Shown in pieces: positions 2,007-18,373 of a stretch of DNA of 23,463 bases. Each line of letters starts with the position of its first letter. Position 1 is the first letter of the stretch. The stretch is from a virus. Both the position numbers and the translations under genes were made by a program. The stretch lies in the IMG/VR virus record IMGVR_UViG_3300014914_000473, positions 1-23,463 of that record; one strand, given 5' to 3'. A model generated the notes under the pieces. That model ran no database searches. It worked only from the letters and a program-made list of their open reading frames with translations, and was not told where the DNA came from.

Positions 2007-2680
2007 TGGATGCAAACGAGCAGGTGTGGGTGCTGGACGCAAAGGCTTTAAATAAATTCGAGGGATTGGAGTTGTCGAAGTTCGTAACCAGTCCTTCCGC
2101 TGTGCATTCATTCTGGCAGTCGCTGGAGCATGCGTTTTTTATGAGTAGAGGTGAAGCTGAAGTTCTCCCTGCGTACAAACAGATCATCCCTTACATGGTG
2201 TTATCGTCTCAAGGGAAATACCTCACGTATCGTCGTGCAGGCAGTGAAGCCAGGTTGTCTGATAAGTTTTCGATAGGAGCCGGTGGCCATATCAACCCGG
2301 CTGATGTTCAGGAGTTTAGGAAGCGTATGGTGTACCATGCGGCTCTTCGTGAGTTGGACGAAGAACTGGAGCTAAACGTGGGAGGTGGCAGGTTTCCCTT
2401 GAGTACTGCTGTACAGGATGGTGATCTTGGTATCCACGGACTGCTCTATGATCCTTCCGATGAGGTGGGGCGTGTACATCTGGGCCTCGTCCTGCAATTG
2501 ACACTTCCGTGGGAAACTGCGATGGAGGTTCGGATGTCCACCGAAGGCAAGGATGTGACGTGGAAGAGTTTGTCGGAATTGCATGAGGTGCCTAACTTGG
2601 AGGGGTGGTCCCATATTTTGCTTCCTTACCTGAATGACGCGATAACTACCATATCGTTGAAAGAGCTGGCGGGTGCATGA
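2006..2680 (+). CDS. Nudix-like hydrolase
   Basis: The product is 224 residues. I chose the ATG at 2006, which overlaps the previous stop (TAATG) and has a GGAGGAGG ribosome site at 1993-2000; the frame is also open from a GTG at 1991. Residues ~88-123 hold a Nudix-like signature: SIGAGGHINPAD, then a longer-than-usual spacer, then HAALRELDEELEL, which gives the RE-x-x-EE metal-binding core (R115, E116, E119, E120). Nudix enzymes hydrolyse nucleoside diphosphates linked to another group; phage members may clean up nucleotides, RNA caps or ADP-ribose. The spacer between GG and RE is longer than the classic 23-residue box, so the substrate cannot be inferred. The N-terminal ~60 residues are family-specific. 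It overlaps the next gene by four bases (ATGA). Confidence 0.72.
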   Translation: MDANEQVWVLDAKALNKFEGLELSKFVTSPSAVHSFWQSLEHAFFMSRGEAEVLPAYKQIIPYMVLSSQGKYLTYRRAGSEARLSDKFSIGAGGHINPADVQEFRKRMVYHAALRELDEELELNVGGGRFPLSTAVQDGDLGIHGLLYDPSDEVGRVHLGLVLQLTLPWETAMEVRMSTEGKDVTWKSLSELHEVPNLEGWSHILLPYLNDAITTISLKELAGA

Positions 2681-3420
2681 GTAACTGGTCTCCTTTACGC
2701 ACAAAGATCCAGGGAGGATGCCCTGCTTGTCAGGGGTCGGGTTATGTGGATTTTGAGTTGTGCAACTGTACCTTGAAGTTCAGGGCGTTTAACCGGCTTA
2801 TCAGGGGTGGCTTCCACGAACATTCGTTGGATGTCGTGAGTTCACCTGACTACATTTTGCCCGTGATGGAGTCGGGTGCGGAGGCATTTACTTATTTTAT
2901 GCAGCACCCGCTAGAAGTGTGTTCCTGGGGACACAGTTTGTATCTCTTCTCAAAAGAGAATGGACTCGGTAAGACTACGTTGGCACACTATGCGATGTAT
3001 GCGGTCTTGTGGACCTTGAGTCGTACCGAGAATTATGGGCCGAAGCGTACATACGCGTTTGAATCCATACAGTCTCTCTGTAAGAAGGAGAACGCAGGAA
3101 AACCTTATAGTACGTGGGATGCCACTATTCTGGTTATTGACGATCTTGGTGCGGAGTCGCGGAGTGCTCTGTGGAAGAAAGAGAATAACCTGGCAATGTT
3201 GCATGAGGGCCTGCATCACCGACTTGACAGGTCCTACCCTACAATTGTCACATCAAACTATACACCTACGGCACTTTCGAAGTTGTATGAAGGTGTGCTC
3301 GATTCAGTACTCGAAATACAACCCGATGGTACTATCGGTGGCCAGCGTTATCGACAGATAGAGGTTGGTGGAGAAGGTGATTTCCGTCGTAAAGACGGTT
3401 ATAGTGTGTGGCCTGTTTGA
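2677..3420 (+). CDS. dnaC: DnaC-like AAA+ ATPase, probable helicase loader
   Basis: The product is 247 residues and starts at an ATG overlapping the previous stop (ATGA). The N-terminus has a small metal-binding cluster, C15-x2-C18 and C29-x-C31, resembling the zinc-like N-terminus of DnaC/DnaI-type loaders. The ATPase core follows: a Walker A of the form KENGLGKTT at 93-101, in which the first conserved Gly is replaced by Lys; Walker B ILVIDDLGAE at 151-160; and a sensor 1 stretch IVTSNYTP at 190-197. Loaders of this family bind the DnaB helicase and place it on ssDNA. The gene directly upstream encodes no helicase, but the next gene is DnaB-like and overlaps it, which is the classic loader-helicase pairing. 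DnaA/IstB-type relatives are possible; the neighbour makes a loader most likely. Confidence 0.82.
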   Translation: MSNWSPLRTKIQGGCPACQGSGYVDFELCNCTLKFRAFNRLIRGGFHEHSLDVVSSPDYILPVMESGAEAFTYFMQHPLEVCSWGHSLYLFSKENGLGKTTLAHYAMYAVLWTLSRTENYGPKRTYAFESIQSLCKKENAGKPYSTWDATILVIDDLGAESRSALWKKENNLAMLHEGLHHRLDRSYPTIVTSNYTPTALSKLYEGVLDSVLEIQPDGTIGGQRYRQIEVGGEGDFRRKDGYSVWPV

Positions 3421-4763
3421 GAATTGACGTACGCGTAGAAGCCGAATTCCTGGCAGCTGTGATTCAGCAATCCGAGGTGATTGACCTGGACGTGTTGCGC
3501 TCGGTAGAGCCGGAACATTTTCAAGTGGATGCCTATAAGTGGATTGTGAAGATCTTCCAGGGACGTGCATGGAAGCGATTGGAATGGGACTACCTGGAGC
3601 AGGAGTTGTTGTCGGTACCGGATGACGAGACTCAGCAGCTTTATCGAAATCAGCTATGGGCATTGTACACGAAGACTTTGAAATTCGAAGAGGATGCTGA
3701 CGCCAAGTTTCGTACCTATGTCAGTTTTTGTATCTCGAATGCAAAGACCAGGGCAGCGTATGAAGGGTTTGAGCGTACGTCGAGGGTAGATTACCTTCTG
3801 GATGAATTGCAGGAGGGTGTAAGAGAAGCTCGTCATGTCGTGGAGGGTTCCAAGTTACGTTCAGTTGACTATTTTGATAATTATGATAGTCGGATGGAGC
3901 GACGGAGAAACCAGCGGGATAACCCTACGATCAACCCACGCGTACTGACGGGGATCTCCGGTCTTGATCAGCAGTTTGTAATCAAGGCACCCATGCTCGT
4001 AGATTTTCTTGCTCCATTTAAGCGGTACAAATCTATCTTTTTAAATGCTATCGGCTACGCAGCTGTTCTCCAAGGCTTCAATGTATTGCATGTTACGTAT
4101 GAGAACTCGGAAGAAATGACAATGGATCGTTACGATGCCATGTTCTCCGAATTGAATTATGACCGTATATCAAACCTTCTGCTTACACAGGCGGAGAAGG
4201 ATGCAGTTGACCATACTTTTAAGTGGATGAACCAGTGGCCCAACCGTCTTAAGATCGTTAAGGCTACCGCAGAAGAGACTACGGTTTCCGAAGTAGAAGA
4301 GGCGTTGGATCGTTTTCGTGACGTAGATGGCTGGGTACCTGATGTAGGTATATGGGACTATGTAAACATTATCGCACCCAGTGTACGCTTTAACGAAGAA
4401 CGCAGGGACCAGAAAAAGGCAGTATGGGATCTGAAACGTCATACGGAGAAGTGGGGTGTTGCAACGTTTACTGCATCGCAGGCGAATATGGAAGGTGCGA
4501 AGGCAGATCGTATGACTATTGGTCATCGAGGGAAGAGCATCGATCTCTCCCAGGCGTTTGACTTATCTATTGCGATTGACCAGACTGATGCGGAGCGTGA
4601 TGAGGGTATTATTGTGCTTAGTCCTCACTTTGTACGTGGGGGTGCTATCACTATACCCGAGGTTGTGTTAGATGCAGAGCTGGACCGTATGTCTGTCTCA
4701 CGCGAGTTGCATCGTTTATGGGAGCATGCGCAGCGAGTAAATCCTTTTATTACGGAGAGTTAG
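3408..4763 (+). CDS. dnaB: DnaB-like replicative DNA helicase with degenerate Walker A
   Basis: The product is about 450 residues. Starts at GTG 3408 or TTG 3417 are both possible; the latter overlaps the upstream stop by the TTGA pattern and neither has a strong ribosome site. The N-terminal ~150 residues match the helical DnaB N-domain in layout. The RecA-like core begins near LTGISGLDQQF (180-190). Where the P-loop belongs the sequence is LAPFKRYKS (201-209): Lys and Ser are kept but the glycines are lost. The order that follows is DnaB-like: VTYENSEEM with the catalytic-type Glu (E232), a Walker B-like VGIWDYVNII (D317), TASQAN with the conserved Gln, and a final region resembling the DNA-binding and arginine-finger part. 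It would unwind the fork with the adjacent loader and primase. ATPase activity should be confirmed because of the altered P-loop. Confidence 0.8.
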   Translation: MACLRIDVRVEAEFLAAVIQQSEVIDLDVLRSVEPEHFQVDAYKWIVKIFQGRAWKRLEWDYLEQELLSVPDDETQQLYRNQLWALYTKTLKFEEDADAKFRTYVSFCISNAKTRAAYEGFERTSRVDYLLDELQEGVREARHVVEGSKLRSVDYFDNYDSRMERRRNQRDNPTINPRVLTGISGLDQQFVIKAPMLVDFLAPFKRYKSIFLNAIGYAAVLQGFNVLHVTYENSEEMTMDRYDAMFSELNYDRISNLLLTQAEKDAVDHTFKWMNQWPNRLKIVKATAEETTVSEVEEALDRFRDVDGWVPDVGIWDYVNIIAPSVRFNEERRDQKKAVWDLKRHTEKWGVATFTASQANMEGAKADRMTIGHRGKSIDLSQAFDLSIAIDQTDAERDEGIIVLSPHFVRGGAITIPEVVLDAELDRMSVSRELHRLWEHAQRVNPFITES

Positions 4764-4864: not shown

Positions 4865-5827
4865 TTGGACAAGTACGAGTATATCCTATCGAAGTTCCCC
4901 TCGAAGTCCCCTAATGCAAGCGGGGAGATACACACGCAATGTCCTTTTCACGACGATCACGGCCCTTCTTTTAGTATTAATACAGATAGCGGTGCTTTTG
5001 TTTGTGGTTCACCTCGTTGCGGAGTTCGTGGATCCTTCGCGTACTTTTATAAGCTTACTGAGGGTATCGAATCCTGGGCACAGGTATATCGCGATCTAAG
5101 GATTACTGAGGTCAGCCCTGACATACTGGAGTTGATTAAATCTAAACCAGACCGGAAGAAACAATACCGGATTTCAGCTTGGCCTCATCCAGATCAGGTT
5201 GAGTCTGTTCGCTCTATTCAGTATCTAACGGAGAGGGGGATAACCTCGGATATTATCGAGAGGTATGGCTTGGTATATGGTATCTCCGGTGATTGCACTG
5301 GAGTATCTATTGCCGATTCCCTCGTGATTCCTGTCTACGATCTGAACGGCGTGTTCGTTACTTTCCAGGTGAGGTATCTCGCGAAGGGTGCCCCTCTCCG
5401 CTGGCGTATGCCTTCGGGTTCGCCTGCGCAGAATGTGTTGTACGGGGGTTGGCTCGTGCAGGGAGAACCTTCTGAGTTATGGATTGTAGAGGGTGCGAGT
5501 GATGTGTGGACTATGGCATTGCTCGGTTGTCAGTCAGTAGGTCTCTTCACTAAGGAGACGAGCGCAGCTCAGTTGAATCGGTTGCGTGACCTGTGCGTGA
5601 GTAACGAGTTGACGCCGGTAATCTGTATGGACGGTGATGCAGTGACTCGCAAGAACGGGTTGGTTACCGTGGATTACGGTCTGCGTATTCATAACGAATT
5701 GTGTGCTTTTGGGCTTGATCCTGTTTTGGTTCACCTGAACGAGACCGAGGACCCAGGGGGGTTAACGGAAGAGCGTTTTCAGGAGATCAGACGTAACACG
5801 GAGGGTTTAAGTGGACGGGCGGCTTAA
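4865..5827 (+). CDS. dnaG: DnaG-type DNA primase (CHC2 zinc finger plus Toprim)
   Basis: The product is 320 residues. The start is a TTG at 4865 preceded by an AAGGTG stretch; no ATG or GTG lies nearby in frame. The N-terminal CHC2-type zinc finger has C26, H29, C47 and C52 in the expected setting (CPFHDDHGPSFSI and FVCGSPRCGVRG). Residues ~119-139 (YLTERGITSDIIERYGLVYG) match the DnaG linker between the zinc and catalytic regions. The Toprim core shows IVEGASD (E209, D213) and CMDGD (D256, D258), the acidic metal ligands. The enzyme makes RNA primers for Okazaki fragments. At 320 residues it lacks the C-terminal helicase-binding domain of cellular DnaG and any fused helicase domain, so coupling to the DnaB-like helicase must be by another route. 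It overlaps the next gene by 17 bases. Confidence 0.9.
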   Translation: MDKYEYILSKFPSKSPNASGEIHTQCPFHDDHGPSFSINTDSGAFVCGSPRCGVRGSFAYFYKLTEGIESWAQVYRDLRITEVSPDILELIKSKPDRKKQYRISAWPHPDQVESVRSIQYLTERGITSDIIERYGLVYGISGDCTGVSIADSLVIPVYDLNGVFVTFQVRYLAKGAPLRWRMPSGSPAQNVLYGGWLVQGEPSELWIVEGASDVWTMALLGCQSVGLFTKETSAAQLNRLRDLCVSNELTPVICMDGDAVTRKNGLVTVDYGLRIHNELCAFGLDPVLVHLNETEDPGGLTEERFQEIRRNTEGLSGRAA

Positions 5828-6632
5828 GCAAACATTAGAGTGGATTGCACTCGGTTTGGACAAGAGTGATCCTGCATTAGCGGCAGTTATCCGGGAGTGG
5901 GCACCTTTCTTTTTTGTATCTGCGTTGCGAGTAGCCAGGGTGACGGGTGTAGACGCGGACGACGCTCTTGGTGATATTCTTGTTGCAGTAGTGGGTGTAA
6001 ATTCTTTATACAAAAAACCCCTGTACCGGTACAAGGGTGCACTCTACCACGTTGTCGTAGAGGATGGGGTTGCTGTACACGTGAGTACACCTCCTGCTAA
6101 CCTAAAACAGCGTTTATTCTGGACAATGAAAACTAACCTGGAGTCAGTCACTATGGGTCGGATGGAGTCCATGGTTTACCATCAGGTTAAGCACCATTGT
6201 GTTAATGCAACTAAAGCTTCGTTTAGCCTGAAGCGCGGTTACGGTATTTGTCTGCACGAGGTCTCGCTTGATACGGTTGAGGAGCAGCAGGGTGAAGACT
6301 CCAACATTGATACTAGCGTCTACCCGTCTATGCGTGAGATTCGTACTTACATAAATGACATCGAGAGTGATCCTGAGAGTATGCTTTCTGTAGCACAACT
6401 GGTCGCCGGGATGACCGCAGGTATCTCAACGAAGGCGCTTGGTGTATTAACTGAGTTACTTGCGGATCCGGGTATCTCCAATGCTGGTATCAGCAGGCGT
6501 TTAACGTGCACTCACAAACAGGCAGCGGCTGCGCGTTTGGAGATTTTGCGTACTTTTATGTTGATGGAAGGGGAAGATATTTCTACACCTTGCAGGACTC
6601 CCGTGTATATAAAGGCAGATCAACTATGGTAG
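5811..6632 (+). CDS. Sigma-factor-like protein
   Basis: The product is 273 residues, starting at GTG 5811 with a GGAGGG site just upstream (5800-5805) and overlapping the primase. Residues ~28-62 (REWAPFFFVSALRVAR, then GVDADDALGDILVAVVGV) resemble sigma-70 region 2, with a DAxxxAL type helix seen in ECF and phage sigma proteins. Residues ~100-130 form another amphipathic helix region. Residues ~207-250 (ALGVLTELLADPGISNAGI, then RRLTCTHKQAAAARLEIL) look like a region 4-type helix-turn-helix. Between them is a Tyr-rich beta-like stretch. If correct, it would direct RNA polymerase to phage promoters. It ends in a seven-base overlap with the clamp gene. The similarity is by pattern only; another helix-turn-helix DNA-binding protein is possible. 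Confidence 0.5.
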   Translation: MDGRLKQTLEWIALGLDKSDPALAAVIREWAPFFFVSALRVARVTGVDADDALGDILVAVVGVNSLYKKPLYRYKGALYHVVVEDGVAVHVSTPPANLKQRLFWTMKTNLESVTMGRMESMVYHQVKHHCVNATKASFSLKRGYGICLHEVSLDTVEEQQGEDSNIDTSVYPSMREIRTYINDIESDPESMLSVAQLVAGMTAGISTKALGVLTELLADPGISNAGISRRLTCTHKQAAAARLEILRTFMLMEGEDISTPCRTPVYIKADQLW

Positions 6633-7750
6633 TGAGTGTGGTTAATAAGAAACTCGTACTGGATTACCAGTTTGGTTTGGATTTTTGCCGTGCACTGGAA
6701 AAATGCAGCCCTAAGAATGATTTCGTCTACTTCTCTTATGATGGGAATCACTTTAGTATGTTTGCCCAGTCGCACATGGCGACCGTGTACGGGGCTGCGG
6801 AGGTACAAGGTGCCCCCTCCTTCCACGCGGGAATCGATTCTCCAAAGTTCGTTGCGCTCTTTAAGAAACTATATAAAGGGAGTGACATCGTATTGAGTGC
6901 CACTGCTTCCCATCTGACAGTGACGGAAGATAATATCAAGGTACGTTTTCCAGTAACGTCATACATTAAACACGCCACCTTTCCGAAGTTTCACTACATC
7001 GAGGGGGATGAGTGTGCATGGCTGGCGAAGCATTTGCATCTGTGTGAAGAGGCCATTGGTGAGGACAAACGCTTTCCCGGTGTACTAGTTGATGCTACTT
7101 CACCTAACGTAGGGCGTGTTCTCAATTTCTCAACTTTTGCTATCAGGTCCTGTGCATACTCCTCTTTTTCATTTCCGAATGTTCGGTTTGTTGTACCCCC
7201 GGAGATGTGCATGTCGCTTGGGTTGTTCTCGAAGTCGTTAACGCATCTGATGGTGGAGTCTCAGAGATTCGGCGGCAAGCTGAAAAGCGGAGTGTACTAC
7301 TACATGTCCCTGCTTTCGGATGGGTACCCGCGCACGTATGCGGATTCGCTGGGGTTGTTGGATAGGCGTATGCAGGTTTCGCTGGATGGCCGGAAGTATG
7401 TTTTTAAGAGGGAACGTCTCCTCGAAGTATTGGATCTCGTTGCTGCCGTGGTAGGGACAGAGGAGCACTCGGTGCTTTGTTCCGTCGAAGGTGTGGATGC
7501 TGCTAATAAGCGTCCGGTATGGCTTATTAGTGCCAGTACCTATAGTGGATTGGAGGCGAGCGAGCGCGTAGAGTGTCTCACTCCGGGGCCTACTGACATG
7601 ATCCCTTTTCGGGTTAATAAAAAGCATGCGATTGGGAACATAAAAGTACACCAGGAGCACGTTGTTGTTTACGATAAGGACGAGACTCACTTGATTGTTA
7701 CCGATGAAACTTGTTCGGATGTGACGGTGTTGCTGAAGGCACCTGCATAG
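6626..7750 (+). CDS. dnaN: Beta-type DNA polymerase sliding clamp
   Basis: The product is 374 residues, close to the ~366 of bacterial beta clamps. I chose ATG 6626, which overlaps the upstream stop (ATGGTAG) with an AAAGGCAG site at 6611-6618; the frame is open 40 codons further upstream to GTG 6506, but that would overlap the sigma-like gene by 126 bases. Domain 1 shows the clamp pattern FHAGIDSPKFVALFKKL, then SDIVLSATASHLTVTEDNIK, and a FPKF segment. A second domain covers about 120-245. A third domain (about 250-374) contains IPFRVNKKHAIGNIK and ends with strands like those of beta. The clamp encircles DNA and holds the polymerase, and would be loaded by the DnaX-like protein at 12233. 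Sequence identity to beta is low, so the call rests on length and domain pattern. Confidence 0.72.
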   Translation: MVVSVVNKKLVLDYQFGLDFCRALEKCSPKNDFVYFSYDGNHFSMFAQSHMATVYGAAEVQGAPSFHAGIDSPKFVALFKKLYKGSDIVLSATASHLTVTEDNIKVRFPVTSYIKHATFPKFHYIEGDECAWLAKHLHLCEEAIGEDKRFPGVLVDATSPNVGRVLNFSTFAIRSCAYSSFSFPNVRFVVPPEMCMSLGLFSKSLTHLMVESQRFGGKLKSGVYYYMSLLSDGYPRTYADSLGLLDRRMQVSLDGRKYVFKRERLLEVLDLVAAVVGTEEHSVLCSVEGVDAANKRPVWLISASTYSGLEASERVECLTPGPTDMIPFRVNKKHAIGNIKVHQEHVVVYDKDETHLIVTDETCSDVTVLLKAPA

Positions 7751-9044: not shown

Positions 9045-11249
9045 ATGTTTTTCTCTGATGTGAAAGTGCCCTCCACCTATATCCTGGCTGACAACCCGAA
9101 GAAGCTTGCGTGGTTGTCAGATCAGTTGCTGAATTCAGCGGAGTTCGCCTTTGATATCGAGACTAATTACCCGACTGGTGTTAATAAGAAAAAAGGACTA
9201 CCCCCGGATTATGTAGAGTTGGTGGCAGGAATTTCTTTTGCGTGGGGGCGCACACAGCTAGTGACTCCCTGGAAACCAGGGAATGCAGTGTATGTTCCTC
9301 TGATAAAATCGGATGATACACCTTTCTGGGGTAAAAGGCAGCACAGCGTTCTCGATACACTTCGGAAGATCCTGGAAAATGATATCCCAAAGGTTGCACA
9401 CAATGGGAAGTTCGATGTTCGAAAGCTGGCTATACTAGAGGCGTTTCGTACCCGAGGTCTTCTTTTCGATACGATGCTTGCACACGCATTGCTCGATGAG
9501 GAGAAGCTTGTTTCTTCGCATGCCTTGAAGTCTGATTTTAGTATCGATGGAAAACGTATAAAGATAGGCATCGCCGATGCGTACCTCGATGCTAACGCGA
9601 GTCTGTTTAAGGGGGACCTGAAAGACGCTCTTCGTTTCTATGATCCGCAGATGAAAAGGTACAGCAAGGTGCCGTTGAAGACTCTGTACCCCTATGCGTG
9701 TGCCGATGCGGACCTCACCCTGTCTCTCAAGTATGCGTTCTGGCCTCTGCTGGAAGAGGAAAAGCTCCTGCCGATCATGCAGGATCTGATCATGCCACTA
9801 CAGCATGCGCTAATGCTGATGGAGTTGCACGGAGTACCCCTCGATCTGGGTCGTGCACGTGAGGTTTTAGGGGAAACTGCGGCTACAATGCAGGAGTGTG
9901 AAGAGCCTATCTTCAAGATGTGTGGCACTAAGTTTAATCTGGGGAGTCCTAAGCAGCTTGGTGTGATGCTTTTTGAGACACTTGGCTTGCCGGGTGGTAA
10001 GAAGGACAAGGTAACCCATCAGTGGGTGACGAACTCGGAAGCCTTAAAAGCACTTAATCATCCGTTGTCGGAGCCACTGCTCAAGTTCAGACGTGCCCAG
10101 CAGATCCATGGTCTTTATGCTGAGCCTGCTCTCAAGAAGGTTGTTGAGGTTACAAACGAAGGCTACCTGGGATGGGTCCACCCCGAGTACTGGATGGATT
10201 CTGTTACCGGGAGACTGAAGCTTACTGACCCTAACCTGACAACACTTCCACGACCTGAAAACGGAGGTCTTGTTGTCAAGTCTATGTGGTGTGCTGACGA
10301 TGAGCACCGTTTTATCTTTAAGGATTTCTCACAGGTGGAGCTACGAGTAGCGGCTCATATCTCCAGGGAGCCTGTATGGATCGAAGGTTTCCATGCAGAC
10401 CATGATATGCACGCAGCTATGGCCGCGAGGATCTGGCACCCGCATTTAACTCCTGAGCAGGTGAAAGAGCATCACGGTGCAGACCGGTCGAAGGCGAAGA
10501 CTGTGAATTTTGGTATTATCTACGGACAGACTTTGTATTCTCTTTCTCAGCGCCTGGGTATCACCTACGAAGAAGCGGATACACTGGTTAACGTGGACTA
10601 CTTCGGGGCTGCTCCGGTGTTACGTCAGTGGATAGAGGATACGCACACGTTTGTGCGTAAGTACGGATACATGAATAACATCTTCGGACGTCGTAGACAT
10701 CTGCCCGACGCACAATTGCATATCCCTGAGTCAGTTCCTATGCCTTCATGGGACGATAGACCTTCATGTTACCGGAAGGGTCCTTACGCCACTTGGCTTG
10801 GGATGGAACCGCAGGATTTGTATACGATAGACACGCAGACTCTTCGTTCTCATCTGAAGTCTCAGAAGGGCTATGCGCACTGTAATAACTGTTCTCATTT
10901 ACATTCGTGCGTGATCAACAGGGAAGTAAAGTTTGTTAAGGGGAAGGTCGAGCGGGCTTTCCGTCAGTCGGTTAACAGTCCTATTCAGGGTTCTGCGGTG
11001 GACATGGCTTCGATGGCGTTATGTACGATCTCCCAGCAGCTGCAGCAGTATGATCTGCCTGCTGCTCCTATCCTGCATATACATGATGAGCTGGTGGTGT
11101 ATTCACACGTGAGTTGTGTAGATCAGGTGTGTGCGATTATGGACGAGGCAATGACTAGTGATCTGGTGCGCCGGACTGACTTCCTTGTGCCTTTGAAGGT
11201 AGATACTGAAATTGTTCAGCGTTGGTCAGACAAACACTCAAAGGAGTAG
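9045..11249 (+). CDS. polA: Family A DNA polymerase with 3'-5' exonuclease and a Cys-rich insertion
   Basis: The product is 734 residues, starting at ATG 9045 with a GAAGGTGG site six bases upstream. It lacks the N-terminal 5'-3' exonuclease domain of bacterial Pol I, as is usual for phage enzymes. The proofreading domain has Exo I FAFDIET (D37, E39), Exo II VAHNGKFDVRKL (D124) and Exo III YACAD (Y217, D221). The polymerase domain has motif A DFSQVELR (D427), O-helix RSKAKTVNFGIIYG (R481, K485, Y493) and motif C HIHDELVV (H680, D681). The nucleotide-selecting Phe of E. coli Pol I (NFG) is kept. Between GRRRHLPD (548-555) and ERAFRQSVNSPIQG (636-649) about 80 residues replace the roughly 13 of Pol I; this insert has C575, then C613-x2-C616-x5-C622. 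This is the likely replicative polymerase, acting with the clamp and clamp loader nearby. Confidence 0.95.
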   Translation: MFFSDVKVPSTYILADNPKKLAWLSDQLLNSAEFAFDIETNYPTGVNKKKGLPPDYVELVAGISFAWGRTQLVTPWKPGNAVYVPLIKSDDTPFWGKRQHSVLDTLRKILENDIPKVAHNGKFDVRKLAILEAFRTRGLLFDTMLAHALLDEEKLVSSHALKSDFSIDGKRIKIGIADAYLDANASLFKGDLKDALRFYDPQMKRYSKVPLKTLYPYACADADLTLSLKYAFWPLLEEEKLLPIMQDLIMPLQHALMLMELHGVPLDLGRAREVLGETAATMQECEEPIFKMCGTKFNLGSPKQLGVMLFETLGLPGGKKDKVTHQWVTNSEALKALNHPLSEPLLKFRRAQQIHGLYAEPALKKVVEVTNEGYLGWVHPEYWMDSVTGRLKLTDPNLTTLPRPENGGLVVKSMWCADDEHRFIFKDFSQVELRVAAHISREPVWIEGFHADHDMHAAMAARIWHPHLTPEQVKEHHGADRSKAKTVNFGIIYGQTLYSLSQRLGITYEEADTLVNVDYFGAAPVLRQWIEDTHTFVRKYGYMNNIFGRRRHLPDAQLHIPESVPMPSWDDRPSCYRKGPYATWLGMEPQDLYTIDTQTLRSHLKSQKGYAHCNNCSHLHSCVINREVKFVKGKVERAFRQSVNSPIQGSAVDMASMALCTISQQLQQYDLPAAPILHIHDELVVYSHVSCVDQVCAIMDEAMTSDLVRRTDFLVPLKVDTEIVQRWSDKHSKE

Positions 11250-11252
11250 TTT

Positions 11253-11294
11253 ATGTATAAGTTGAAAATGAAAGATGAGGTAAGAGATGCCTAA
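11253..11294 (+). CDS. 13-codon mini-ORF ahead of the lysozyme-like gene
   Basis: ATG at 11253 encodes MYKLKMKDEVRDA then TAA. It has an ideal ribosome site, AAGGAG at 11241-11246, six bases upstream. Its stop overlaps the next ATG (ATGCCTAA, 11287-11294). The next gene has only a weaker AGGTAAGAG site, so this mini-ORF may serve to bring ribosomes to it, or it may just be a by-product of a start change. A function as a peptide is not shown. Confidence 0.35.
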   Translation: MYKLKMKDEVRDA

Positions 11295-12216
11295 AGCACG
11301 TTGGGTAAAATGGAGGAGTGGCGGTGGTCCCCGCGTAAGAGGTAAGAACGGGTTCAACCCACCCAAACCGTGGGGTCCCTGGACGAAACTTCTCGGAGTG
11401 GTTGCACGCTGTGAGGGGGCACACGACACCGTAGTTATGTACGATGAGACCGGGGTAACCTGGGGGTTCATGCAATGGACCTTCAAGAGTGGTCGTCTCC
11501 AAAGATTACTGGAGAGTTTCAAGTCAATTGAGCACATCAATTTTGAGGAAGATACTCGTTTTAACCTTTTTGATTCCGTTTGTTGTGGCGCTAACGGTGT
11601 TCAGCGTTTCGAGCGTTTTGGTTTCAGGATCACCGGGGGTAAGTTCGTTGACCTGTCAACTGGCAAAGCTCTCAATATGAATAAGCGTGCAGATCAGAAA
11701 CGCTGTGCTAACATCTGCATGGGTCGAGTACGATATCCGAAGAATGTGAAGCAGCAGCGGTTGCACGCGCTGGGTTTGGCAAACTTGTTTGCGGGACTGG
11801 GCAGCAGTGTCGACGTGGCAGAAGCTCAGACTCATTTTGCGAAACAGGAGTTCCGGCGACAGCTGCGTTATAATCGCAAGCCGTTGAAGGGCAATAGTAT
11901 AGAATGGTTGCTAGGCGGGGATAGGGATAATCCAATGGATTTCTTGTGGGGTACTCCACTGCCTGCGTTATTCTTTACAAATTGGCAAAATCATCCTGCG
12001 GCTGCGTATCGGTTGTTTATGAAGGTGAGGAAAGCAGTAGATCCGAGTGATTCTCACGCTTACTTCCAGCATGCGTGGAAGGCGGTTAACCGATCCAAGT
12101 TTGGTAACTGGGGTTGGGGAAAACCTTCGAACAAGAGTCCTCGTGTATTGAGGATTAGGAGAGCAATTGTGGAATTCTACGGTTTGTCGAATAGTCAATT
12201 GCCTTTGTACAAGTAG
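11287..12216 (+). CDS. Lysozyme-like protein, probable peptidoglycan hydrolase
   Basis: The product is 309 residues. The first ~30 are basic and Pro/Gly-rich. Next comes LLGVVARCEGAHDTVVMYDE (35-54) followed by TGVTWGFMQWTFKSGRLQRL (55-74). The order Glu (E43), then a YD-x-x-G pair, then GFMQWT, resembles lysozyme-fold enzymes that cut the glycan of peptidoglycan, in which an early Glu is the general acid. The rest, to 309, is rich in Trp, Arg and Asn, with no recognised cell-wall-binding repeats. There is no signal peptide. It stands alone among replication genes, between polymerase and clamp loader, an unusual place for an endolysin. It may be an endolysin, a virion-associated lysin or an unrelated protein; I recognise the N-terminal pattern only. 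Confidence 0.45.
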   Translation: MPKARWVKWRSGGGPRVRGKNGFNPPKPWGPWTKLLGVVARCEGAHDTVVMYDETGVTWGFMQWTFKSGRLQRLLESFKSIEHINFEEDTRFNLFDSVCCGANGVQRFERFGFRITGGKFVDLSTGKALNMNKRADQKRCANICMGRVRYPKNVKQQRLHALGLANLFAGLGSSVDVAEAQTHFAKQEFRRQLRYNRKPLKGNSIEWLLGGDRDNPMDFLWGTPLPALFFTNWQNHPAAAYRLFMKVRKAVDPSDSHAYFQHAWKAVNRSKFGNWGWGKPSNKSPRVLRIRRAIVEFYGLSNSQLPLYK

Positions 12217-12232
12217 TAGGGGTTTTGCGTTA

Positions 12233-13330
12233 ATGCAATACTCAGTGAAATACCGACCTCACGTTTTTGCACACGTAGTGGGTCAGCCGGTGACGGTGAG
12301 AATACTTCTGAACTCTATTCGTATGGGTAGAGTTCCAGGGGCTATTCTATTCTCAGGCATACGGGGGACAGGCAAGACAACGCTGGCTCGTCTGTATGCG
12401 AGGGCACTAAACTGTGAGGACTTAATATCGTCTGGTGATCTGTGTGGTCAATGCCCTTCTTGCCGGGAGGAGACAGATACACATCCGTCTATTATTGAGA
12501 GGGATGCCGCTACTCACAACGGAGTGGATGACATCAGGGATTTGAATAGTCTGTTGCAACAGGTGGTATTGCATCGGTATCGTGTGGTGATTCTGGATGA
12601 GTGTCACATGCTTTCGAAGCAGGCACAGGCTGCGCTGTTGAAAATTCTGGAAGAGCCTCCGCCTAATACTGTGTTCCTGATGGTGACAACTGATCCCCAA
12701 AAGTTGGAGTCAACGATCAGATCGAGGTGTATCCAGGCACCACTGAGGACTCTTACCTCTGTCGATGTGGCCACCAATGTCAGGAATATCCTCCAGGCAG
12801 AAGGGAAGCAGTACACAGAGGACTTTGTAGAACAGTTGAGTATGTTGGGTGGAGGATCATTAAGGGACGTACAGCAGCTTCTGGAGGGTCTTGTACTGGC
12901 AGCAGGGGATGATGTCGTAGGTCTTGAGTTGTTAAGAGATTCGGTAGGGGTCATCTCCACTCAGGAGTATGGTGAGCTTGCAGAAGTACTGGATCATAGA
13001 AATTTAAGATTTTTTTTACAAGAAATTCGCAGGTGGTATAGCGAGGGAAGGGACGTAAGGTTCCTGTTTATGGAAGGGATTCCTGTGTTGTTACGGGACT
13101 TTATGATTTTCCTTAGTGGAGTTCCTGCGGGTACGGTGGAGATGCACACAGGGCTATCATACGGATCTCTTTCTTGTAACTTAAGATTACAGCTCTCTGA
13201 CGTGAGGCGAGTGGCTCATGAGTGGGAGGTGACGATGGAGTTTATGAGGTACACCCTCAACCCTGTTGTTATATGGAGCATGTTTGCCGCCAAGGTATGT
13301 TGTGAGTACGACCAAACTACCTTGGCATAG
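12233..13330 (+). CDS. dnaX: DnaX-like clamp loader ATPase (gamma/tau type)
   Basis: The product is 365 residues. I chose ATG 12233, where homology to DnaX begins (YSVKYRPHVFAHVVGQ), with an AGGGG site at 12218-12222; the frame is open to 12167 but that part overlaps the upstream gene. Motifs in order are Walker A GIRGTGKTT (42-50), a DnaX zinc module of C61, C71, C74 and C77, Walker B VVILDECHML (D122, E123), sensor 1 around MVTTDP, the SRC motif IRSRC (162-166) and a sensor 2 GGSLRD (~207-212). The protein is about the length of bacterial gamma without a long tau tail. It would open the beta-type clamp encoded at 6626. No separate delta or delta-prime gene is visible in the window, so it may act as a homo-oligomer or with host subunits. 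Confidence 0.92.
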   Translation: MQYSVKYRPHVFAHVVGQPVTVRILLNSIRMGRVPGAILFSGIRGTGKTTLARLYARALNCEDLISSGDLCGQCPSCREETDTHPSIIERDAATHNGVDDIRDLNSLLQQVVLHRYRVVILDECHMLSKQAQAALLKILEEPPPNTVFLMVTTDPQKLESTIRSRCIQAPLRTLTSVDVATNVRNILQAEGKQYTEDFVEQLSMLGGGSLRDVQQLLEGLVLAAGDDVVGLELLRDSVGVISTQEYGELAEVLDHRNLRFFLQEIRRWYSEGRDVRFLFMEGIPVLLRDFMIFLSGVPAGTVEMHTGLSYGSLSCNLRLQLSDVRRVAHEWEVTMEFMRYTLNPVVIWSMFAAKVCCEYDQTTLA

Positions 13331-14818: not shown

Positions 14819-16196
14819 TTTTAATATGCCCTACCAAAAAGAGAAGGAAGCCAGCGATAACAAGAAGAGCGCTCCATTGAAGCAACTGTGGAAGGCACTT
14901 CCGTTGAAGGCAGGCAGCTCTCATTCGAATGATGTGATCATACCCTTGTGTTCTCCCAACACATGGCAGCTGTTCAATCCTACTCCGGAGCAGGTAAGGA
15001 AATACGGGATGTGTACCCCCGGCGTGGATGGTCTGGTGGCTCTCAACGCTGCAAACCCAATGTACACATTCTACTTCAAGCTGCCGGTGCATGACATTCC
15101 CGCCTTTAATCGACCTGATGGGACGCAGGGATGGGCGCAAGTTCTCTGTCCGGTTCAACTCAACCAGTACTTAGTGCTGCTCGGGCAGCAGCCCTTGTTC
15201 GAGAACCCGCGTTGTGCACATTGTGAGGAGGAGGCTCGACTCTGGGAAGTGACCAACCAGAGGTGGGATACTTGTGGAACAGACAAAGGCAGTCTATCGA
15301 CGGAAGGCTACTTTGATTTTATCGAGAAAGATCCTATCCTGGGGCCTGCGCGTAAAGCTATAGCTTCGTGCAAGGTTAGGGAGAAGTACTTCATTCCGAT
15401 CTTTGATCATGCAAAATTCAGAAAGGATCGTCCGTTAGACGAAGGAGAGGCAGGAGTCGAGCATCAGGCATGGCTTGCATCTGTTGGTATTTTTGAGAAG
15501 CTGGTTATGCTGTTCGAGGCAGGTCTTCGCTTTTTTGAGAATAGCTCTGCTGGATTCCCTGTGCTGTCAATTGTCAGGGATAACACTAACTGCGTCGGTG
15601 CCAGTCTGATGAAGACCAAGTACGATGTGATCACGGTTAACAGGTTCCACGCGTACGAAGCGGACTGGGTAGCGTACTTAACTAACTATGCGGCGATGGT
15701 AGATCCTTCTAAGTTGGTCCATCTCATATCATACGAAGAGGGGCGTTTCTATGTCGAGCAGATGAAGTCGGCAGGCAATGACTACCAGGTTCCTGCGACA
15801 GCACCTCCTATAGGTGTTCCGCCTGTAGCGGGTGCAGCACCTCTAGGCACAATGGCTCCGTCCGTAGCTGCTTCTCCTCTGGGAGCACCTCCGACGTCAG
15901 CACCTCCAACAGGTGTGCCTCCTGTAGCGGGTGCAGCACCTCTAGGCACAATGGCTCCGTCCGTAGTTGCTTCTCCCATGGGAGCACCTCCGACGTCAGC
16001 ACCTCCAACAGGTGTGCCGCCTGTAGCGGGTGTAGCACCAGTGGCAGTTTCTCCGGTTCCTACACAGCCACCAGCTCCAGCACCACCAGTGGCGGTTTCT
16101 CCGGTAGCAACGGTACCTGCGGTAGCAGGGACTGCACCACCCGAGAGAGCAGCAACACCTCCGGCAGGAGACGCACCACCTAGACGTCAGTGGTAG
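14811..16196 (+). CDS. Candidate ssDNA-binding protein with Pro/Ala-rich tail
   Basis: The product is 461 residues, starting at ATG 14811 with an AGGAGG site at 14797-14802. The first ~325 residues are a globular region. It has several Cys/aromatic segments (PRCAHC at 133-138, TC at 154-155, [15 protein letters not shown] at 186-200) that fit the zinc-containing gp32-like ssDNA-binding proteins of large phages, in which Trp and Tyr stack on bases. Residues ~326-461 are almost only Pro, Ala, Val, Gly, Thr and Ser, with a 33-residue repeat. The usual acidic SSB tail is absent; the end is PPRRQW. The tail is long and uncharged except at the end, so it likely forms a flexible linker or spacer. 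The gene position, directly before recA, supports an SSB. The call is by position and composition, not by clear homology. Confidence 0.45.
15813..16043 (+). repeat. 99-bp tandem repeat coding the Pro/Ala tail
   Basis: Two complete copies of a 99-base unit lie at 15813-15911 and 15912-16010, differing at five bases. A third, partial copy follows to about 16043. They encode 33-residue units starting GVPPVAG and ending TSAPPT. The near identity at the DNA level indicates a recent duplication, and the unit length is a multiple of three so the frame is kept. Confidence 0.92.
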
Positions 16197-16207
16197 AAGG
16201 GAACGCA

Positions 16208-18373
16208 ATGGCACAGGCTAAGAAGAAGCAAAAAAAGTTAGAAGCAGATCGAACTGTTGAAATTCTTAAGAAGATTTCAGCTACCAAAGAGGGTAGTGAG
16301 TTCGGGTTGCAGATGATGGATGTAACAAAGATAGCTGACGTACCGCGTACCCCGTCAGGGATTCTTAGCCTGGACCTTGCACTCGGAGGGGGTTATCCTT
16401 GTGGTCGAATAATCGAGATGTTCGGTCCAGAGGGAGGCGGTAAGACTACAGTTGCTCTCCACGCCATGGCAGAAGCACAGAAGCGTGGGGGGACAACTGC
16501 TCTTGTAGACGTGGAGCATGCGTATGATCCCTCGTATGGAACCAGGGTGGGTATCGACCATGCGAAAATGTTGTTCTCTCAGCCGAATAGTGGGGAGCAG
16601 GCATTGTCTACAGTAGACATGCTGTGTGATCATCTGAAAAAAGGTGATGTGATCGTAGTGGATTCGGTGGCGAACCTTACTCCGCAGGCTGAACGTGACG
16701 GAGAGATGGGGGACACTCACGTAGGTCTGCTGGCTCGATTGATGAGTCAGGCGATGCGCAAGCTCACGTCGAAGGTATCCGAGTCAGGTGTTACCCTAAT
16801 CTTTATTAACCAAATTCGCCACAAGATAGGTGTCATGTACGGGTGTTTTCATGAGGATACGCCTGTAATATTTGTTGATGGGTCTCAGCATAGTATTCGT
16901 GAAGTAGTTGAGCAAAAGTTGGAAGGTCCCTTACTTTCTTTTAACGAAGAGGCAGGGCTATTTGAACCTAGAAAAATTATTAATTGGTTTCAAAATGGAG
17001 CGCTAGATACGAACGCAGGGGAACAGTGGCTGACCATATCTACCTCTTCTGCGGGAGGCCCCAATGGTAATATGAGTTTTACTTGTACACCTGGCCACAC
17101 GGTATACAAGTGTGAGTGTAGCAAATCCGCGTCCTCCTCTCTGGAGCTGAAGAAGGTGCCAGCATCAGAGTTGAAATTAGGCGATAAGCTTGTTTCGTGG
17201 TGTGAGGTTAGGCTGGGCTTGAATTCTTTTTACCAAGATATTTTGTATGGTACGATGTTAGGGGATGGCTGTTTAAGGCTCAGGTCTGTTTCAACCGCGT
17301 GTTTAAGTTTAGCGAATCAAGAGCAACCTGATTACCTGAAGTGGAAGTTAACTAAACTTGAGGGATTGAACTTTACCTTAGCGGGTAATGCAACACGTCC
17401 TCGGTGGGATTCTTCCTATACAACTGAGCTTGCCAATTTACGACGTGTTTTTTATTCAGAAGATGGAAGCGGCTTTAGGGGGGTTCCTTCTATGAAGGAG
17501 TTATCTCCGCTATCTGCTGCGGTTTGGTACATGGATGATGGGTGTTACTCTAAAAGTCATAGGAGGGGTTTCATATCTGCTAAGAGGTTTTGGCCTTCGC
17601 GGTTAGATGAGGTGGAGTCTCTACAAAAACTTTTGTGTTCTCTTATAGGGTGCGATACTGAGGGGGTTGTGATCGATCACACAGGGAAGGGGTTACGTAT
17701 AAACGTAGCAGCATTCGCACAGTTTAGTAAGAAAATAGCCGTGTACGTACCTGCGTGTATGCAGTATAAGCTTAATCCCGTGGATAGAAATCGCTATGTT
17801 GATTTTGATACAGGGGATCTAGAAAAAGTTCAGAGGATTCCTTACCTGGTGGATGTGCGTCAGATTGCAGTAGGTTCAACTCGTAAGCATCGAGCTAAGC
17901 GAAAGTATGATTTACAGGTTGAAGGCAATAGGAACTACCTCGTAGGGGGTAGTCATCGTGGCGTGGTAGTCCATAATAGTCCCGAAACGACGCCCGGTGG
18001 AAATGCTTTGAAATTCTACGCTTCCCAGCGACTGGACATCCGTCGTATCGCTAAGCTCAAAGAGACGGATGAACGCAATAACCCTTTGGGGCATATGGTG
18101 AGGATCAAGATAGTCAAGAACAAAGTTGCTCCTCCTTTCCGGGAGGCTGAGCTTGAGATCTACTACGGCTATGGGTTTCTTCGAGCGGCAGATCTTTGTC
18201 TGCTCGGGGTAGCGGAGGGTATTATAACGCGGAGCGGTACATGGTATTCCCTCGACGGTGTGAACCTGGGGCAGGGAGCGGAGAAGACCAAGCACTATCT
18301 GGCCAGTAACCCGGATAAGATGGATATGATCGAGGAGAAGGTGAGGGCAATATATGCACGTAACAGTACCTAA
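16208..18373 (+). CDS. recA: RecA recombinase interrupted by an intein
   Basis: The precursor is 721 residues. I chose ATG 16208 with a GAAGGGA site; GTG 16190 is also open in frame. The RecA exteins total 343 residues: 1-212 and 591-721. They show Walker [10 protein letters not shown] (73-81), VDVEHAYDP with the catalytic Glu E103, Walker [13 protein letters not shown] (148-159), the [14 protein letters not shown] segment (199-212) and then, after the intein, [22 protein letters not shown] and [13 protein letters not shown]. Spliced, these give a standard RecA that pairs homologous DNA and may help replication restart. The intein sits exactly in the L2 DNA-binding loop, so unspliced protein should be inactive. 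A candidate SSB precedes it and SbcCD follows. The stop overlaps the next start by 20 bases. Confidence 0.97.
16844..17977 (+). mobile_element. RecA intein with LAGLIDADG homing endonuclease
   Basis: The intein is 378 residues. It begins with Cys ([13 protein letters not shown]) and ends with VVVHN, followed by Ser as the +1 residue, all the residues needed for splicing. Block B is [10 protein letters not shown] (T82 and H85 of the intein). The homing domain shows two LAGLIDADG-type motifs, [10 protein letters not shown] (133-142) and AAVWYMDDG (225-233); both keep an acidic residue, so cleavage activity is plausible. Block F is around [14 protein letters not shown]. The DNA is visibly richer in A and T than the recA exteins on either side, a sign of acquisition from elsewhere. 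The cleavage site would be the intein-less recA L2-loop codons. Confidence 0.95.

Follow-up and report, generated by a model that had tools for sequence, protein, structure and literature searches.

The family A DNA polymerase (PolA) encoded in the window, that is, the whole 23,463-nt stretch of viral DNA analyzed here (IMG/VR record IMGVR_UViG_3300014914_000473, positions 1 to 23,463), carries a cysteine-rich insert in its polymerase domain, and the four cysteines of this insert are kept in every insert-bearing relative that we recovered. The reading that we favor, at a probability of about 0.58, is that the insert is a structural four-cysteine metal mini-domain in the fingers, which more likely holds a [4Fe-4S] cluster than zinc and acts downstream of the active site.

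A cysteine-rich insert in the polymerase domain of a phage PolA

The polA product matched PF00476 (DNA_pol_A; E = 3.8e-82, 276.7 bits against a gathering cut-off of 34.3), PF01612 (exonuclease; E = 4.6e-10), and PHROG 17 (DNA polymerase). These DNA_pol_A and exonuclease domains were the only ones found by Pfam, and a 5′ nuclease domain was absent. In the alignment with the Klenow fragment, motif A (D427/E432), the O helix (R481-K485-F489-Y493), R640/N644/Q648, and motif C (H680-D681-E682) were all present. The polymerase catalytic residues were invariant or nearly so across the relatives, and the exonuclease residues D37, E39, D124, Y217, and D221 were in place and similarly conserved in the alignment. 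The best AF2 model of the whole protein (pLDDT 86, pTM 0.83) superposed on Klenow with a Z of 39 over 584 residues (rmsd 3.6). The coordinates of polA, its insert, and the neighboring replication genes are collected in Table 1.

Table 1. Features of the polymerase gene, its insert, and the replication genes around it (window coordinates)
Feature	Position	Strand	Description
DnaB-like replicative helicase	3408..4763	+	PHROG 19, E=1.8e-33; syntenic in relatives
DnaG-like primase	4865..5827	+	CHC2 zinc finger; PF01807, PHROG 47; syntenic
polA	9045..11249	+	734 aa (P0001); family A DNA polymerase with 3'-5' exonuclease domain
Cys-rich insert	10716..10952	+	Residues 558-636; replaces E. coli Pol I 830-837, between GRRRHLP hairpin and helix Q
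C575	10767..10769	+	First predicted metal ligand, in a [P/W]-x-C-[Y/F/W] setting; invariant in 18/18 distinct sequences
C613	10881..10883	+	Predicted metal ligand; invariant
C616	10890..10892	+	Predicted metal ligand; invariant
Extended helix Q	10899..11048	+	Residues 619-668; DSSP of AF2 model, phmmer alignment
C622	10908..10910	+	Predicted metal ligand, in first turns of extended helix Q; invariant
DnaX-like clamp loader ATPase	12167..13330	+	PF13177, E=2e-33; PHROG 5846; syntenic

A preliminary description of this DNA had reported about 80 additional residues between GRRRHLPD and ERAFRQSVNSPIQG. The ORF translation bears this out: 80 residues separate D555 from E636 (10707–10953, residues 555–636), compared with approximately 12 in E. 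coli Pol I by the same borders. When the borders were taken from the phmmer alignment with Klenow, residue 557 corresponded to chain residue 506 (E. coli 829) at the left edge and residue 637 to chain residue 515 (E. coli 838) at the right edge, leaving approximately 79 residues where E. coli has 8. The right end of the insert lies four residues ahead of R640, which corresponds to E. coli R841. Between the O helix and motif C lay 184–202 residues in the insert group versus 101–145 in the other PolAs retrieved, and in none of the latter was the cysteine motif found at the insert site. Among 13 sequences, mean pairwise identity was 36% for the insert and 57% for the polymerase domain outside it.

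Conservation of the four cysteines

Whole-protein searches of IMG/VR yielded 12 further distinct relatives with 47–69% identity to the window protein. A scan with a single protein recovered three relatives at approximately 60% identity, and an alignment scan returned the set at 47–69%, the largest contig being 212 kb, followed by a steep fall to approximately 31%. DNA-pattern scans, in which the patterns represented only C613, C616, and C622 together with the helix Q motif, all set at fixed distances, added five PolAs with 28–52% identity, bringing the sample to 18 distinct sequences (the window, 12 from the whole-protein search, and five from the patterns). The patterns recovered close relatives (L094 and L095) as well as divergent PolAs on contigs of 139 kb (L181/L182, 28% identity), 183 kb (L271, 37%), and 28 kb (L272, 35%); the matches in L099, L270, and L273–L276 were due to chance.

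All four cysteines (C575, C613, C616, and C622) lay exactly where the preliminary description had placed them. Their spacing in the window is C-x37-C-x2-C-x5-C, and the order C-x(n)-C-x2-C-x5-C occurred in 18/18 distinct sequences; the distance between C575 and C613 varied from 37 to 54 across the relatives, C-x2-C-x5-C was constant, and the four residues together covered only about 48–65 residues. The loss of any of these cysteines from insert-bearing relatives had been proposed as evidence against a metal site, and this comparison revealed no such loss. All four were kept in each of the 13 sequences obtained from the whole-protein search alone (window included), and in all 18 distinct sequences with identities to the window down to 28%. 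For the five sequences recovered by pattern, conservation of the C-x2-C-x5-C trio is built into the search; C575 in its [P/W]-x-C-[Y/F/W] setting, which was outside the search pattern, was nonetheless present in all five. Among the 15 closest sequences, both TGT and TGC occurred at each of the four positions, and this synonymous variation indicates that the conservation acts at the protein level.

Little else in the insert was fixed. Of the 79 insert columns, 8 were invariant across the first 15 distinct sequences, all four cysteines among them, an arrangement with a chance probability of 5e-5 if columns are assumed to be equivalent; this figure is a guide only, because it ignores the general tendency of cysteines to be conserved. 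In alignment A5 (17 sequences, including three more distant PolAs), invariance within the insert was confined to the four cysteines and P561; no further invariant cysteine column occurred anywhere in PolA. The nearby histidines to which the preliminary description had drawn attention (H603, H612, H618, and H620) varied among the relatives and were rejected as ligands. Taken on this pattern of conservation, it is highly probable that the insert binds a metal.

Cellular and named-phage sequences were also searched. A protein-profile scan of genome contigs from the GTDB species genomes scanned gave zero confirmed relatives, and five cellular DNA-pattern matches were rejected because they were not PolA. 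No insert-bearing PolA was found among the named phages of INPHARED, where tblastn of the insert returned only noise. The PolAs of Listeria phage LP-110, Sphingomonas phage Birtae, Streptomyces phage BRock, Dinoroseobacter phage R26L, and Thermus phages P23-45 and 15-6 had a short or different loop and lacked the motif.

In a separate group of PolAs (L214, L228, L231, L235, and L256), we observed an apparent N-terminal fusion to a family-4-like uracil-DNA glycosylase domain, identified from an early CxxC and a VGEAPG motif in translations judged by eye; such glycosylases belong to an Fe-S class. The C-x2-C-x5-C of the L235 PolA, and like motifs in those of L214, L231, and L256, lie in these N-terminal glycosylase-like domains, not at the insert site.

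Phylogeny and genomic setting

In a PolA tree built with gappy columns dropped, the 16 insert-bearing PolAs (all those in the tree except L182) formed one clade with support of 100/99, in which L272 and L271 were the deepest branches. L182 was placed outside this clade on a long branch, although a single common clade was not rejected (p-AU 0.059). Because L182 falls apart from the main clade, the insert would either be old, with subsequent losses, or have moved once by a single transfer. The P-x(n)-P-x(n)-P-x-C-Y layout shared by the inserts argues for their homology.

The close relatives had a gene order in common, consisting of a DnaC-like loader, DnaB, primase, unknown genes, PolA, clamp loader, and RecA. 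On the basis of this conserved replication gene order, it is very likely that the window PolA serves as the replicative enzyme in a lineage of large phages. L182 had nothing in common with the window apart from the polymerase and the left-edge helicase. The terminase families PF03237 and PF17289 gave zero matches in the searches.

Several other features of this region were observed. Two genes without a Pfam or PHROG match (6620–7750 and 11287–12216) were syntenic with polA across the lineage, and the former (approximately 376 aa) occupies the slot expected for a sliding clamp. The DnaC-like helicase loader (2677–3420) has a probable zinc site at its start (CPACQGSGYVDFELCNC). In the slot expected for a single-stranded DNA-binding protein (15750–16196) there is a 461-aa protein whose C-terminus is a long repeat tail rich in Pro/Ala/Val and which had no match in Pfam or PHROG. 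From its translation, the RecA gene (16190–18373) is apparently split by an intein, with the N-terminal part of RecA followed by a segment ending in VVVHN and then by a further segment.

Predicted structure and proposed role at downstream DNA

The local fold of the insert was predicted confidently by AF2. The pLDDT of the insert was 76–88 within the full-length model, and when a 94-residue fragment was modeled alone with only 15 sequences, the pLDDT was 88.1 and the pTM 0.76. In the predicted layout, which consists of coil and short helices, a short helix contains C613, C616 falls in a turn, and C622 belongs to the first turns of a helix that continues into helix Q. Helix Q is lengthened N-terminally in the model and bears R640, N644, and Q648, which correspond to E. 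coli R841, N845, and Q849. Comparison of the insert with Pfam and with PDB sequences gave only noise, even at E-values up to 10, and the isolated insert had at best a Foldseek E of 6.6 and a VIA Z of 2.2 against PDB folds, a kind of comparison in which small irregular domains are easily missed.

In Bst and E. coli Pol I, R779 (S831) and R784 (R836) touch the downstream duplex DNA, and strand displacement requires S769, F771, and R841 (PMC6846080). A role at downstream DNA is proposed for the insert because it takes the place of the E. coli segment that includes S831 and R836; judged from homologous position only, we give this role an even chance. The preliminary description had suggested an effect on processivity or redox sensing of the replication state. 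Position would make strand displacement or fork engagement likelier than processivity, and redox sensing is a speculative possibility.

We propose the following mechanism. The insert would be a small structural metal domain lodged in the fingers of a family A phage replicase, and its four cysteines would jointly hold one metal centre, [4Fe-4S] being likelier than zinc. This centre would staple a coil-rich excursion of 60 residues onto the N-terminally extended part of helix Q, whose R640, N644, and Q648 would hold the template at the primer end. The insert would most likely form a rigid platform on the downstream side of the active site, well placed for guiding or opening the downstream DNA, and would influence strand displacement or the way in which the polymerase engages the fork or helicase.

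Nature of the proposed metal centre and alternative explanations

The preliminary description had compared the insert with the Fe-S nucleases of the Cas4/AddB family. The comparison holds for the ligand order, which is identical, but no sequence or fold match to such nucleases was found. There was no RecB-like PD-(D/E)xK nuclease spanned by the cysteines, and the insert had no Pfam nuclease match. Membership of the Cas4/AddB family is thus not indicated, whereas the narrower proposal that the insert binds metal in the manner of an iron staple stands, by analogy. In Cas4 SSO0001 this arrangement holds a [4Fe-4S] cluster on Cys32 and Cys188/191/197, and in Pcal_0546 a [2Fe-2S] cluster on Cys64 and Cys200/203/209 (PMC4176176), while in DUF3799 (PDB 3L0A) the same four-cysteine staple holds zinc, not Fe-S (PMC3466216). 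Because C-x(n)-C-x2-C-x5-C is the iron-staple ligand order, [4Fe-4S] is favored over zinc and, if a metal is bound, is the somewhat more probable cluster type; since iron staples also hold zinc or [2Fe-2S], our own estimate of Fe-S against zinc is only about two to one.

The foremost alternative is that the four cysteines bind one structural zinc, producing a zinc-stabilized loop that would sit at the same site and do the same mechanical work without redox chemistry. Such a site is possible, and we hold it to be appreciably less probable than the favored reading. All of the ligands are cysteines and a tetrahedral arrangement could be formed, as the zinc-bearing staple of DUF3799 illustrates (PMC3466216). 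Zinc is frequent in phage replication proteins, the window primase (PF01807) included, and an Fe-S biogenesis gene (A-type carrier, PF01521) was found in none of 12 related records, a function that the host could supply. Against zinc, C-x2-C-x5-C together with a remote cysteine is the order of the Fe-S iron staple, and its tail matches that of EndoIII/MutY. Classic zinc sites usually consist of two CxxC/CxxH knuckles.

It is improbable that the insert is instead a lineage-specific loop expansion whose cysteines have a non-metal use, such as a redox-switched disulfide or packing on a partner protein. The PolAs of Streptococcus phages Dp-1 (L189) and MS1 (L183) carry an insert of approximately 75 residues at the same site, but theirs is acidic and cysteine-free, and these PolAs lie elsewhere on the tree. 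This loop is therefore a recurrent expansion site that tolerates growth, and expansion here does not in itself require metal; disulfides between paired cysteines would also be possible. However, four invariant cysteines with a fixed C-x2-C-x5-C in a poorly conserved remainder form a pattern typical of metal ligands, and stable disulfides are unlikely in the bacterial cytoplasm. Least probable is that the polymerase captured part of an iron-staple nuclease, or of some other known Fe-S domain, and that the insert derives from it, for although the ligand order is that of Cas4/AddB, the insert has only about 80 residues without nuclease motifs, no Pfam or PDB sequence match or PDB fold match was found, and Cas4 (PF01930) was absent from 13 related phage records.

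Comparison with known systems and implications

Compared with E. coli Pol I, the window PolA has the same family A polymerase and 3′-5′ exonuclease fold and keeps the catalytic and template-contact residues; it differs in lacking the 5′ nuclease domain and in having the four-cysteine insert instead of residues 830–837. With the iron-staple nucleases (Cas4, AddB, and Dna2/Bad), the insert shares a remote N-terminal cysteine and a tight C-terminal trio in the same order. The phage insert differs from them in its fold context, in having no nuclease domain or motifs and no detectable homology, and in the location of the trio at the start of a long helix within a polymerase. The cluster loop of EndoIII and MutY has the same last three ligands, C-x2-C-x5-C, and places its cluster near DNA, as in Deinococcus EndoIII2 (DrEndoIII2; C199/206/209/215) (PMC9268735) and MutY (C-x6-C-x2-C-x5-C) (PMC2954223). 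The first spacing is 6 in that loop versus 37–54 in the insert, so that the EndoIII/MutY pattern does not occur in the insert, which also has no helix-hairpin-helix glycosylase domain.

The insert would be a sequence hallmark of an uncultured large-phage lineage. There is, in our judgment, about one chance in two that a [4Fe-4S] cluster lies in the catalytic core of this PolA, the first such case in family A, as part of a clade-defining mini-domain on the downstream-DNA face that arose independently of the cluster in Pol epsilon. Among open-access papers, the literature that the search covered, none was found to describe a metal or cysteine site in a family A polymerase core. If the favored reading is correct, phage replication might be sensitive to iron supply or oxidants, or strand displacement might be steered by the insert, which would represent a natural way to modify the strand-displacement face of Pol I-type enzymes.

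Replicative polymerases of eukaryotic family B are known to contain metal clusters, and it is debated whether these serve a structural, a redox, or a DNA-access purpose. The phage PolA would be a second, independent case in a simple family A enzyme, in which the purpose could be tested by single cysteine mutants, with expression in E. coli expected. The CysX of Pol epsilon belongs to a family B enzyme, is unrelated in fold and position, and carries a cluster that has been called unique to Pol epsilon; nevertheless, it provides a precedent for a replicative polymerase whose catalytic core houses a [4Fe-4S] cluster; the cluster sits at the base of an extra domain and has been proposed to control DNA access (PMC9581978).
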